The translations under genes were made by a program, and so were the position numbers. Positions 41,376-45,928 of a stretch of 49,635 nucleotides of DNA are shown here, piece by piece. The stretch spans positions 1-49,635 of the forward strand of contig JAGWAL010000004.1 of assembly GCA_021296415.1 (NCBI GenBank). Reading direction: 5' to 3'. Every line of letters begins with the position of its first letter. Within the stretch, counting starts at the first letter, position 1. Below the pieces are notes generated by a model. The model worked only from the letters and a program-made list of their open reading frames with translations, was not told the origin of the DNA and did no database searches. This stretch comes from Acidimicrobiia bacterium. Its GTDB lineage: Bacteria; Actinomycetota; Acidimicrobiia; Acidimicrobiales; CATQHL01.

Positions 41376-43379
41376 TCAGTCCTCTGCCGGCGCCTCGGAG
41401 GCCCGGCGACGGATCTCCTCGACGACCGATGCGTCCGCCAACGTGGTGGTGTCACCCAGGTTGCGACCCTCCACCACGTCGCGCAACAGCCGGCGCATGA
41501 TCTTGCCGCTGCGGGTCTTGGGCAGATCCGGCACCAGCACCACCGCCTTCGGTCGGGCGATCGGTCCCAGCTTCGTGGCGACGTGCCCGCGAACCTCCTC
41601 GCGCAACTCGTCGCTCGCCTGCGCCGTTCCCCGCAGGATGACGTAGCCCACGATGGCCTGACCGGTGATGGCGTCGCTCGCGCCCACCACGGCCGCCTCG
41701 GCAACGGCGGGGTGGTCCACCAGGGCCGACTCCACCTCGGTGGTGCTGATGCGGTGGCCCGAGATGTTCATCACGTCGTCCACGCGGCCCAGCAGCCACA
41801 GGTAGCCGTCCTCGTCGAGCTTGGCGCCGTCGCCGGCGAAGTAGCGGCCCTCGAAGCGCGACCAGTAGGTCTCCCGGTAGCGCTCCGGATCACCCCAGAT
41901 GCCCCGCAGCATGGACGGCCAGGGTCGGGTGATGGTGAGGTAGCCGCCGCCCCTCCTCAGCGGGTTGCCGCTGTCGTCCACCAACTCCGCGAAGATGCCG
42001 GGAAGCGGGTGCGTGGCCGAGCCCGGCTTGGTGGTGGTGACGCCCGGCAGCGGGCTGATCATGTGCCCACCCGTCTCGGTCTGCCACCAGGTGTCCACGA
42101 TGGGACAGCTCGCGCCGCCGATGTGGGTGTGGTACCACATCCAGGCCTCGGGGTTGATGGGCTCGCCGACGGTTCCCAGCACGCGCAGCGAGGACAGGTC
42201 GTGGCGGGCCGGCTCCCCGGCCCCCCAGCGCATGAACGTGCGGATCGCCGTCGGCGCCGTGTACAGCTGCGTGACGCCGTAGCGGGCGATGATGTCCCAG
42301 AGGCGATCCTTCGGCCAGGCGGTGCGGTCGCCGGTGCGGAACTCCGGGCGCGGCGTGTCGGGCGTGCCCTCGTAGATGACCGACGTGGCGCCGTTGGCGA
42401 GCGGCCCGTAGACGATGTAGCTGTGCCCGGTCACCCAGCCGATGTCGGCGGCACACCAGTAGACGTCACTGTCGGGGCGCAGGTCGAACACGTAGCGATG
42501 CGTGAACGCCACCTGGGTGAGGTAGCCGCCGGTGGTGTGCATGATGCCCTTCGGCTTGGCGGTCGTGCCCGACGTGTACAGCAGGTAGAGCAGGTGCTCG
42601 CTGTCGAAAGCCTCCGGCCCGCCACCGGGATCGGCGTCGGCGGGATCGGCGGCGGCCATCAGTTCGTGCCACCAGTGGTCGCGTCCCGGCCGCATGTCCA
42701 CGTCGAGGTCGCAGCGGTTCACCACCACGACCGTCTCCACCGAGGGAGCGCCGGCGGCGAGCGCCTCGTCTACGTTCACCTTCAGCGCCGACGCGGCGCC
42801 GCGCCGGTAGCCCCCGTCCGCCGTGATGACCATGCGCGCCTCGGCATCCTCGCAGCGATCCACGATGGCGTCGGGCGAGAACCCGCCGAAGATCACCGAG
42901 TGCGCCACCCCGATGCGGGCGCAGGCCAGCATCGCCACGGGCAGTTCGGGGATCATCGGCATGTAAATGGCCACCCGGTCACCGGCCTGCAGCCCCAGCG
43001 AGCGCAGCACCGCTGCGAAGCGGCGAACCTCGTCGAGCAGCTCGGCGTAGGTGATGGTGCGGGTGTCGCCGGGCTCGCCCTCCCAGTGGAAGGCCACCTT
43101 GGCGCCCCGGCCAGCCTCGACGTGGCGGTCGAGGCAGTTGTACGCCATGTTCAGCGTGCCGCCCACGAACCACCTGGCGAAGGGCAGATCCCACTCCAGC
43201 GTGGTACCGAAGTCCTCGGACCAGCTCAGCAGCTCCCGAGCCTGGCGCGCCCAGAACGCCTCGTAGTCGGCGGTGGCCTCCTCGTAGAACGACCGCGCCG
43301 CCGCGGCCTCGGCGAAGCCCACCGGCGGCGGGAAGGTGCGCTCCTCGACATAGAAGTCGGCGATCGTCGCTTCGGCCAT
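41376..43379 (-). CDS. acs: acetyl-CoA synthetase
   Basis: A 667-residue AMP-forming acetate-CoA ligase, for acetate assimilation. Adenylation motif YTSGTTAKPKGIMHTTGG, acetate pocket VDTWWQTETGGH, and the C-terminal PKTRSGKIMRRLLR whose lysine is the usual acetylation control site are all present. The ATG has GGTGGGA upstream, and a TAGGCT hexamer near 43462-43467 could be a -10 for a leader of about 75 bases. It is followed by a small HAD gene. Confidence 0.96.
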   Translation of the reverse strand: MAEATIADFYVEERTFPPPVGFAEAAAARSFYEEATADYEAFWARQARELLSWSEDFGTTLEWDLPFARWFVGGTLNMAYNCLDRHVEAGRGAKVAFHWEGEPGDTRTITYAELLDEVRRFAAVLRSLGLQAGDRVAIYMPMIPELPVAMLACARIGVAHSVIFGGFSPDAIVDRCEDAEARMVITADGGYRRGAASALKVNVDEALAAGAPSVETVVVVNRCDLDVDMRPGRDHWWHELMAAADPADADPGGGPEAFDSEHLLYLLYTSGTTAKPKGIMHTTGGYLTQVAFTHRYVFDLRPDSDVYWCAADIGWVTGHSYIVYGPLANGATSVIYEGTPDTPRPEFRTGDRTAWPKDRLWDIIARYGVTQLYTAPTAIRTFMRWGAGEPARHDLSSLRVLGTVGEPINPEAWMWYHTHIGGASCPIVDTWWQTETGGHMISPLPGVTTTKPGSATHPLPGIFAELVDDSGNPLRRGGGYLTITRPWPSMLRGIWGDPERYRETYWSRFEGRYFAGDGAKLDEDGYLWLLGRVDDVMNISGHRISTTEVESALVDHPAVAEAAVVGASDAITGQAIVGYVILRGTAQASDELREEVRGHVATKLGPIARPKAVVLVPDLPKTRSGKIMRRLLRDVVEGRNLGDTTTLADASVVEEIRRRASEAPAED

Positions 43380-43614
43380 GATCCCACCTCGCTTCTGCCG
43401 CTTGCACCCGCCGCACGGCGCCGGCCGCGCCCACGGCCCACGCGCCCCCGGGCGACCGCCGAGCCTACTCCTTCGGCCACTGGGCCCGAACGGCTCGCCG
43501 AGGTCCGTCCGAGCCCGCCGGCAGCCCCCGACCGCCCGCTCGCCGACGAGAGACGCCGGTGTCGTCGCCGGTCTCGACCCGGGTGCCGGTGGCTGTGTCG
43601 GTCTCGCCTGCCGA

Positions 43615-45057
43615 TTAGTCGCCGGTGTCGCCCTCCGGGCCGCCGGATTCGAGCCCGTTGGGATAGCGGCCGAAGTTCTGCGTCACCCAGAGCGTGCCGT
43701 TGTCCACGGCGATGCCGATGCCGAAGTGGGTGTAGTCGCGGTCGGTCATGTTGGCGTAGTGGCCGGGGCTGCCCACGAGGCCGTCGAAGGAGCGACGCAC
43801 GGCGCCGCGCAGCGACGTGGGGGCCGGGACCTGCGAGACGTTCTCTCCCACGCGAGTCCAACCGGGGGGCATCTCATCGACGTACGCCGGGTTGTGGTAG
43901 AGGCTCTCTTCGGCGCCCATCGTGCGCGACCAGCGACGGGCGACCGCGGCGATGCCCGCGTCGTGGATCAGCGCATCCACGCCCAGGCCGCGGCGCAGCT
44001 CGTTCACGAGGTCCGCCATGTACGCCTCGGCGGCTTCCAGTTCGCGCTGGGCCGGGGACCGACCGGCGACCACCGCGGTGGCGTAGGTCAACCCGTCTCG
44101 GGTGGCGACGCCGGTTCCGATGTGGGTGCACAGCTCGCAAAGCAGGTTCTCGGTGGCCCGCTCCGCCAGCAACGAGCCGCTCAGCCTCTCGGCCAGGCCG
44201 GACACATCGGCGGAGGCCCAAGTCATTGCCGATCTCACGGTGCGCCACAGGTCCCAGTCCGACTTCAGGTGGGGCGCATAGGAGTAGCCGCTCAACCAGT
44301 CGCCGGCATCGGCCATCGCCTCCGCCCGCACCTGCGCAGCGGCCGAGAGCGCATCGTCGACAAGCAGCGGAGCCATCCCGGCACGCAACCCGTTGGCGCC
44401 GGCCAACACCAGCACCGCCAACCGCTCGCCGAGGTCCACCGCAGGCTGAGTCGTCTCAGTCGTCGTCACCGTGGTTGTCGTCGTGGAGGTCCCGTCGATC
44501 GGCGGCAGCAAACCCGATGACGACGTCTCGCCGGCGCTCAGCGTCAGCGGCGTGCTCACCAACCAGCGCCCCGCCGCCGTCCCCGCCGGGAAGAACCGCG
44601 CCCGCGGCAACAACCGCTCCCCCCAATCAGAACCCTCCCCGCCACGCCGCTGCAGGGCGAACTCGACACTCCCCGACGCAACCCGCCGAGCCACAATCCG
44701 CACAGCCACCTCGGCGGACATGTCGCCGCCGGCGGCAACCTGCAGGATCAGCGGCGTGCTCACCAACCAGCGCCCCACCGCCGTCCCTGCCGGGAAGAAC
44801 CGCTGCCGGGGCAACAACCGCTCCCCCCAATCAGAACCCTCCCCGCCACGCTGCTGAAGGGCGAACTCGACGTTCCCCGACGCAACCCGCCGAGCCACAA
44901 TCCGCACCTCATCCCCGCCACCGCCATCAAACCCCTCCTGACCACCAACCCCGGACACGGCCCCGACCAGGGTCGCAACCACAACGACCGCCGAAGCCGC
45001 GAACCGAGTCACGAGCCGACCGGCACCGCCCCCGCCAATGCCGATGCGTTCGCTCAT
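43615..45057 (-). CDS. secreted protein with duplicated 55-residue module and two CAP-like domains
   Basis: A 480-residue exported protein. Signal peptide 1-40 (AASAVVVVATLVGAVSG). Residues 51-105 and 119-173 are two copies of one module (start VRIVARRVASG, end GRWLVSTPL) identical at 50 of 55 positions. A Thr-rich linker (about 190-204) follows. Then comes a first, degenerate CAP-like region (about 208-330; LLVDDALSAAAQVRAEAMAD, HIGTGVA), and a second canonical CAP/SCP domain (about 345-475) with YHNP, RVGENVSQ and GSPGHYANMTDRDYTHFGIGIA. CAP proteins are extracellular with varied roles. The ATG at 45055-45057 fits the signal peptide; longer starts were rejected. The module is not a family I can name. 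Confidence 0.8.
   Translation of the reverse strand: MSERIGIGGGGAGRLVTRFAASAVVVVATLVGAVSGVGGQEGFDGGGGDEVRIVARRVASGNVEFALQQRGGEGSDWGERLLPRQRFFPAGTAVGRWLVSTPLILQVAAGGDMSAEVAVRIVARRVASGSVEFALQRRGGEGSDWGERLLPRARFFPAGTAAGRWLVSTPLTLSAGETSSSGLLPPIDGTSTTTTTVTTTETTQPAVDLGERLAVLVLAGANGLRAGMAPLLVDDALSAAAQVRAEAMADAGDWLSGYSYAPHLKSDWDLWRTVRSAMTWASADVSGLAERLSGSLLAERATENLLCELCTHIGTGVATRDGLTYATAVVAGRSPAQRELEAAEAYMADLVNELRRGLGVDALIHDAGIAAVARRWSRTMGAEESLYHNPAYVDEMPPGWTRVGENVSQVPAPTSLRGAVRRSFDGLVGSPGHYANMTDRDYTHFGIGIAVDNGTLWVTQNFGRYPNGLESGGPEGDTGD
44539..44907 (-). repeat. tandem 165-bp repeat inside the CAP-domain gene
   Basis: Two copies, 44743-44907 and 44539-44703 (period 204 bases), encode the duplicated module. 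DNA similarity is high, with 50 of 55 residues identical, which points to a recent duplication or continuing gene conversion. Confidence 0.85.
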
Positions 45058-45928
45058 CGCGATAGCCCACCGGTGCCGCCAAGCACCGAGCGTCACGCCT
45101 CGATCACCTTGTGGCCCGGCTCGGCGCATACCGGCGCCGCGGAGCCGTCAGACCGCGCGCCCATCTCAACTGATCCAAGACGGGCTACAGGTAGCAAAGG
45201 ACAATCTCGACTGGACGGAGTACCTCCTTCGGACTCACGTGCAACTGTCCGCACCGTCGTGTGTCGACAGCCGTCGCTGTTGACGCACAGTCGATTAGAG
45301 GCGCGTGTATGTCGGTTGATCGTCGGCCTCGGCGCGGTGGAGGTCCTCGGTACTCAACATCACTCGTACAGGTCGCCACACCGAATATGCGGCCGATTGC
45401 ACCGAGCGGCCCCGCGCCCGCTCACAGCGGTGAGTCCCGCATCCAATGATGTTGATCTGCCGAATATGGAGAGGACATCCACCAGCCGACGAAGTTCGCC
45501 AAGTCAAGCGCAAGGTCGGTTTGTCGTTGCCGAGCAAGAACTCCACACCCTCAGCAGCAATTTTAGAACAATCTGCTTCTTCGGTATGCTTCGTCCAACT
45601 CACGGGCAAACTCACCCACGTGCTCTTCGTACTCCTTCTTTAGTCTAGGGCATGGAGTCGCTCTGCTCCGTCCGGTCGACTTGTCCGCGCCTGACGGCTC
45701 GGCGACCGACGGGTCGTGAACGTCGCGCTCGTGCGAACGCACCCGTTCGAGAACTCAAGGACCGGATGACCGGGGACGGTCTTCCGGTGCGCGTCCGTGG
45801 TGGCTCGCGCCGAGGAGGGCCCAGCGGCCCGGCGCGTCGCCGTCGGCGATCTCGGGGGCGGGGGCGTCAGCCGACGCCCCCAGCGAGGGCCCGGGGTCGC
45901 CGTGGTTCGGCTTCAGTAGTCTGGGCGG
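45058..45928. other. 871-base region without a convincing gene, lower GC
   Basis: From about 45170 to 45660 the base composition is visibly less GC-rich than anywhere else in the window, with several stop codons in all frames. On the minus strand a frame near 45640-45560 encodes a plausible peptide (KKEYEEHVGEFARELDEAY) that ends in a stop, and a neighbouring frame continues KIAAEGVEFLLGNDKP, as if a gene had been frameshifted. From about 45700 onward GC content recovers. This looks like decayed or imported sequence. Confidence 0.45.
45917..45922 (+). promoter_or_regulatory. predicted -10 element of leaderless promoter (deacylase gene)
   Basis: TAGTCT is 6 bases upstream of the GTG at 45929 and no Shine-Dalgarno lies between. 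Confidence 0.5.

Follow-up and report, generated by a model that had tools for sequence, protein, structure and literature searches.

Tandem modules on exported proteins of Acidimicrobiia as a candidate envelope-retention domain

Several described systems hold exported proteins at the bacterial surface by means of tandem modules. The GW modules of Listeria are tandem, non-covalent anchoring modules of exported proteins, and SLH modules (PF00395) likewise serve as tandem surface anchors. Anchoring through SLH is also stated in PMC6081394. In Clostridioides difficile, three tandem CWB2 motifs, placed at either end of the protein, are required for retention at the wall, as described in PMC4973711. 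Here we analyzed a stretch of 49,635 nucleotides from an Acidimicrobiia bacterium (GCA_021296415.1, contig JAGWAL010000004.1; hereafter, the window), one gene of which, at 43615-45057 on the minus strand, carries two copies of a module that is reminiscent of these systems.

The likeness to CWB2 (PF04122) lies in the placement of tandem modules at either end of otherwise unrelated exported proteins (PMC4973711). The differences concern sequence, length and copy number: neither the window protein nor 35 + 32 single modules matched PF04122, the CWB2 profile spans 73 positions whereas the module has about 50 residues, and CWB2 comes as three repeats, whereas the module-bearing frames have two in 95 of 115 cases and three in 2. 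In other words, the module would work in pairs where CWB2 works in threes. SLH is similar in being a tandem, surface-anchoring module, yet the modules did not match PF00395, and one protein (L080) carries both an SLH stretch and the module pair, at different places. The module also lacks a Pfam match to GW modules, from which it differs in length and in its conserved residues.

None of the nine genomes of the GTDB family to which the window belongs has CWB2. Two related genomes, G129 and G146, together contain 16 CWB2 frames, of which 10 carry exactly three repeats; by eye, the other parts of these frames resemble wall enzymes, proteases and others, and in one frame an LRR region is similar to one from a module protein. 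Across the class, CWB2 occurred in 22 of 395 genomes, none of them shared with the 22 module genomes, where ~1.2 shared genomes would be expected (the two samples of 395 followed the same sampling rule and were taken as identical sets). Mutual exclusion of CWB2 and the module was considered on these grounds and rejected as not significant.

The window gene and its duplicated module

The gene (480 codons, minus strand, as are all of its parts listed here) is predicted from its translation and a PF00188 match to encode a secreted protein composed of the module pair and two CAP-like regions; an alternative upstream start at 45129 is possible. A signal peptide spans residues 1-39 (44941-45057), its end being approximate, as judged by the hydrophobic run ahead of GVGGQ and by the hydrophobicity value. 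Module 1 (residues 51-105; 44743-44907) and module 2 (residues 119-173; 44539-44703), both delimited by module search and copy alignment, are separated by a linker of 13 residues (44704-44742). The initial annotation placed the modules directly behind the signal peptide; they do lie near it, but begin ~10 residues past its likely end. A Thr-rich linker (residues 174-205; 44443-44538) then leads to a degenerate CAP-like region (about residues 206-335; 44053-44442), recognized by a weak PF00188 stretch and phmmer, and to a CAP domain matching PF00188 (residues 349-462; 43672-44013).

The window protein is a member of the CAP superfamily (PF00188, 72.8 bits versus a cut-off of 21.1; whole-protein E 5.7e-20). 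Its first CAP-like region is weak against PF00188, with two stretches at the limit of E 1 and one at 0.001, and was related to the second by a one-sequence phmmer search (E 0.00014). The GEN and GHY motifs, which we take to be part of the CAP active site, are present in the second region and missing from the first. The Thr-rich linker and the two CAP-like domains, the first of them degenerate, had been described correctly. On the opposite (plus) strand, a 1160-codon open frame (window 41583-45065) faces this gene and an acetyl-CoA-synthetase-like gene, and is most likely a shadow frame of high-GC DNA.

The two modules share 50 of their 55 residues, with 11 differences in 165 nucleotides, and their local alignment score was 259, compared with 53 for the best of 300 shuffles, confirming the duplication of a 55-residue module in a secreted tandem CAP protein. 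That the module is uncharacterized could likewise be upheld. Pfam yielded no significant match for the window protein outside its CAP part, nor for 35 A1 modules or 32 A2 modules (in one case, a module gave a chance value of E 0.13); NCBIfam and PHROGs matched the window protein outside the modules only; PADLOC gave no match; and the best values against PDB sequences were E 1. Membership in a named family was rejected on the basis of these searches, and with respect to the libraries searched the module is an unnamed family. None of the titles or opening abstract lines among the literature matches listed for the lineage, for RCC1 and for anchoring describes the module, although a nameless module is unsearchable by name. 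A phage or plasmid origin was also rejected, as plasmids and phages were searched and gave no match; a scan of viral contigs, leaving aside three DNA-pattern matches there, found no relative.

A single-sequence model of the window pair was all beta (best of five: pLDDT 74.7, pTM 0.71; others: pLDDT 40-56), and a single module modeled from a two-row alignment had three strands (pLDDT 73, pTM 0.49). Using the weak pair model, Foldseek returned no match at E <= 0.001, whether to GW/SH3-like or to other folds, and the best VIA-align Z values, 6.7 and 6.3 (lymphostatin) and 5.7 (archaeal SlaA), fall in the range that the tool calls common; neither search gave a convincing match for the pair. An analysis of coupled residues in the module alignment gave top pairs resembling an antiparallel meander. 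This topology was dropped, since the strongest antidiagonal (2.85) was below the mean of the permuted null (3.26).

Spread, pairing and partner domains

A single-module query matched 10 of 60 genomes: nine make up the window's GTDB family, counting the genome of the window itself, and one is a marginal case. The module is present in 9/9 genomes of this family. Six modules, spread over three genes, occur in the window's own genome, and each of the other seven genomes of the genus yields 10 to 42 matches. At the level of the class, profile A1 matched 20 of 345 genomes (two marginal) and profile A2 22 of 395 (one marginal), the clear cases falling in families f1, f35, f36, f65 and f76, and in a phylum sample of 396 genomes the matches were the window's genome and two marginal, partial ones; as at most 16 to 19 candidates were scored per genome in these profile searches, divergent copies can be missed in the counts. 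A contig search using the whole window protein as the query found only CAP relatives.

The window and the fetched stretches together provided 115 reading frames with 214 modules: two modules in 95 frames, three in 2 and one in 18, a few of the single-module frames being truncated at a contig end or by a frame break. Three of the 115 largely overlap another frame of the same set, and the genes therefore number at most 112. The module is thus conserved beyond the window gene, on secreted proteins, and the profile search recommended in the initial annotation led neither to a named family nor back to this one gene alone.

Linkers between modules measure 3 to 27 residues (median 10). The two copies within a protein have a median identity of 56% (78 pairs in the family), compared with medians of 47% and 49% for modules of different proteins. 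A tree of 204 short modules (10 of the 214, incomplete or masked, were left out of the alignment and the tree) united copies of equal position in 48 of 66 cherries, indicating that most pairs descend as pairs. The window protein is one of 14 proteins, out of 91, in which the two copies formed a clade of their own, and the closest relative of the window gene, in genome G007, has a single module. Given this clade, the single-copy relative and the usual copy identity, the near-identity of the window copies is, judging from sequence, the result of a recent duplication or conversion in the window gene, rather than evidence of constraint. Across the 204 aligned modules, strong conservation is seen at W26, W46, P32, R35 and E14, each being kept in 89 to 99% of those modules that have a residue at the position.

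The pair sits close to the N terminus in 65 of the 95 two-module frames, while 25 frames have it C-terminally and 5 internally. Partner domains were tallied by Pfam in 99 of the 115 frames (E 0.01 or E 0.001), 25 of 26 families being among the matches listed. They included RCC1_2 (28), Amidase_3 (8), LRR_1 (7) and PPC (5), followed by PGA_cap with VanY (3), CAP (2), trypsin (2) and fn3 (2), and by SLH, animal haem peroxidase and Peripla_BP_6 with at least one each; PPC is undercounted here, because near-duplicate PPC-type frames were left out of the tally, together with short, masked or overlapping ones (16 in all). The survey of accompanying domains that had been proposed at the outset accordingly joins the module to RCC1, LRR, amidase, VanY, trypsin, peroxidase, SLH, PPC or CAP regions. 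Amidase fusions occur in families f1 and f36, and the VanY fusion in f1; RCC1 occurs alongside a pair in f1 and a lone module in f36; a peroxidase accompanies the module in f1 and, by eye, also in f36; and a protein with an FYGHPG barrel bears the pair in six f1 frames and two f35 frames.

Two further groups of module proteins were observed. The proteins L059-L068, L074, L176 and L178, from families f35, f36, f65 and f76, have about 845-975 residues, PPC domains (in those scanned) and a pair near the C terminus, and are perhaps the oldest setting of the module. In genome G008, two groups of neighboring genes (L069 and L070), four per stretch, each carry a divergent module pair, which in the two genes scanned is followed by leucine-rich repeats.

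Export signals and exchange with other anchors

Lipobox and cleavage calls were made with simple patterns of our own, using one rule for all proteins. In 114 module frames (one 5'-open frame was left out), the signals comprised 92 with an AxA-type cleavage pattern, 3 with a lipobox pattern, 7 of another kind and 12 without a hydrophobic segment; by eye, the three lipobox-pattern frames have ordinary signal cores. A hydrophobic C-terminal segment was present in none of the 115 module frames, and an LPxTG-like string near the end of one.

We then compared relatives with and without the module. Amidase_3 was represented by 16 genes in 9 of the 12 genomes searched, 8 with the pair, 1 with a single module and 7 with neither. 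By eye, two of these seven have a lipobox, four an N-terminal membrane helix with a Pro/Thr-rich stretch, and one another tandem repeat (in this last protein, our pattern additionally reports a lipobox within the signal core); one pairless amidase, from genome G359, has a cleavable-looking signal. Under the same rule, six of seven pair-bearing amidases showed the AxA pattern, the remaining one, which is 5'-open, being without a pattern. For the FYGHPG barrel, 39 matches were listed and 30 loci examined, 29 of them without the pair; none of these 29 class homologues has the module, and 19 have a lipobox. A CWB2-like region in place of the pair was seen in two of nine barrel homologues (E 0.0056 and 0.26), under the cut-off, and is not claimed.

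Among RCC1 proteins, a lipobox was called in 0 of 22 with the module versus 9 of 26 without it (Fisher P 0.002), or 9 of 23 once three doubtful frames were removed (P 0.0015), though these P values overstate independence, as the module-free set was mainly the top of the hit list, i.e., non-random, and the sequences are related. The remaining 17 of the 26 module-free proteins lack a lipobox, and 11 of these show an AxA-type pattern, meaning that proteins without the pair do not always display an anchor that can be recognized.

By eye, the signal peptide is followed by other repeats in five of the 26 module-free RCC1 proteins, and in four of these the repeat occurs twice. A different repeat of ~45 residues, of the VRDELIAAQESLLNAYRCRF type, is found in L261 and L170 (two copies) and L255 (one copy), from genomes G357 and G359, where it follows the signal peptide in RCC1 proteins and in an amidase. 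A third repeat, of the RCFEHYEFGQEPVPVAKTADG...WGWHDSIGCYLVLD type, occupies the same slot of RCC1 proteins in L254, L258 and L259 (G359, G290 and G775), with two copies in each.

Proposed retention at the envelope and competing readings

In the predicted proteins, the module is usually paired, modular, used at either end, set in an exported context and, in many relatives, exchanged for other anchors. From these features we infer binding, a ligand and retention by the pair: on balance we lean towards a small non-catalytic domain, built mostly of beta strands, that acts in pairs as a new module for non-covalent retention at the envelope. The signal peptide would export the protein and then be cut, and the pair would bind a component of the envelope, with a wall polymer or an S-layer partner as the most likely candidates. 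In this way, two tandem modules would keep the protein attached to the cell's own envelope after secretion, using neither a covalent link nor a membrane anchor, with the remainder displayed at the surface: here the CAP domain, and elsewhere RCC1/LRR repeats, amidases, carboxypeptidases or a peroxidase. Retention is favored by the frequent pairing, the unrelated partners, the placement at either end and the export without another visible anchor, by the replacement of the pair with other anchors in Amidase_3, FYGHPG barrel and RCC1 relatives, and by the CWB2 precedent, in which motifs lie at either end and all copies are needed. Of the surface- or ligand-binding role initially suggested, the evidence would keep the surface, as retention on the cell's own envelope, and not ligand binding in general.

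Alternatively, the pair may bind an outside target, such as a glycan or protein from a host or an extracellular matrix, and act as an adhesin or targeting domain. The strong expansion within one genus, to 10 to 42 matches in seven genomes, would suit such a function, as would the RCC1 and LRR repeats among the partners, RCC1 being named 12 times in a review on molecular mimicry by host-associated bacteria (PMC7542358). We nevertheless consider it unlikely, in light of the fusions to peptidoglycan amidases (f1, f36) and to VanY (f1), and since it fails to explain why the pair occupies the place of membrane anchors in many relatives. It is rather improbable that the pair is an assembly domain, by which pairs on different proteins bind each other and so build up complexes or a lattice at the surface: the presence of two copies, the SLH protein that carries a pair and the inheritance of most copies as first and second (48/66 cherries) are in line with this, but a lattice would still require an anchor. 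As for a spacer, stability domain or export helper without a binding partner, the frequent position close behind the signal peptide and, in some proteins, ahead of a low-complexity linker would fit, yet the strong conservation of W26, W46, P32, R35 and E14 and the C-terminal placement in 25 two-module frames make this very improbable.

The lineage could conceivably possess a set of unnamed, interchangeable anchors, made up of the module pair and two further repeats, one of YRCRF type and one of WGW type. All three follow the signal peptide in members of shared protein families (RCC1, amidase) and alternate there with lipoprotein signals, and each would read a different envelope component and thereby sort its protein to its place; we put this forward tentatively, as a possibility open to considerable doubt.

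Many exported proteins of this genus (10-42 matches in each of seven genomes, six in the window's own) are at present annotated without their probable localization signal. Should the pair be an anchor, the surface proteins of the lineage could be listed on the basis of their sequences, and the pair might lend itself as a new display tag in high-GC Gram-positive bacteria. Moreover, the question of why anchors have fixed copy numbers would become testable in a second, independent system.
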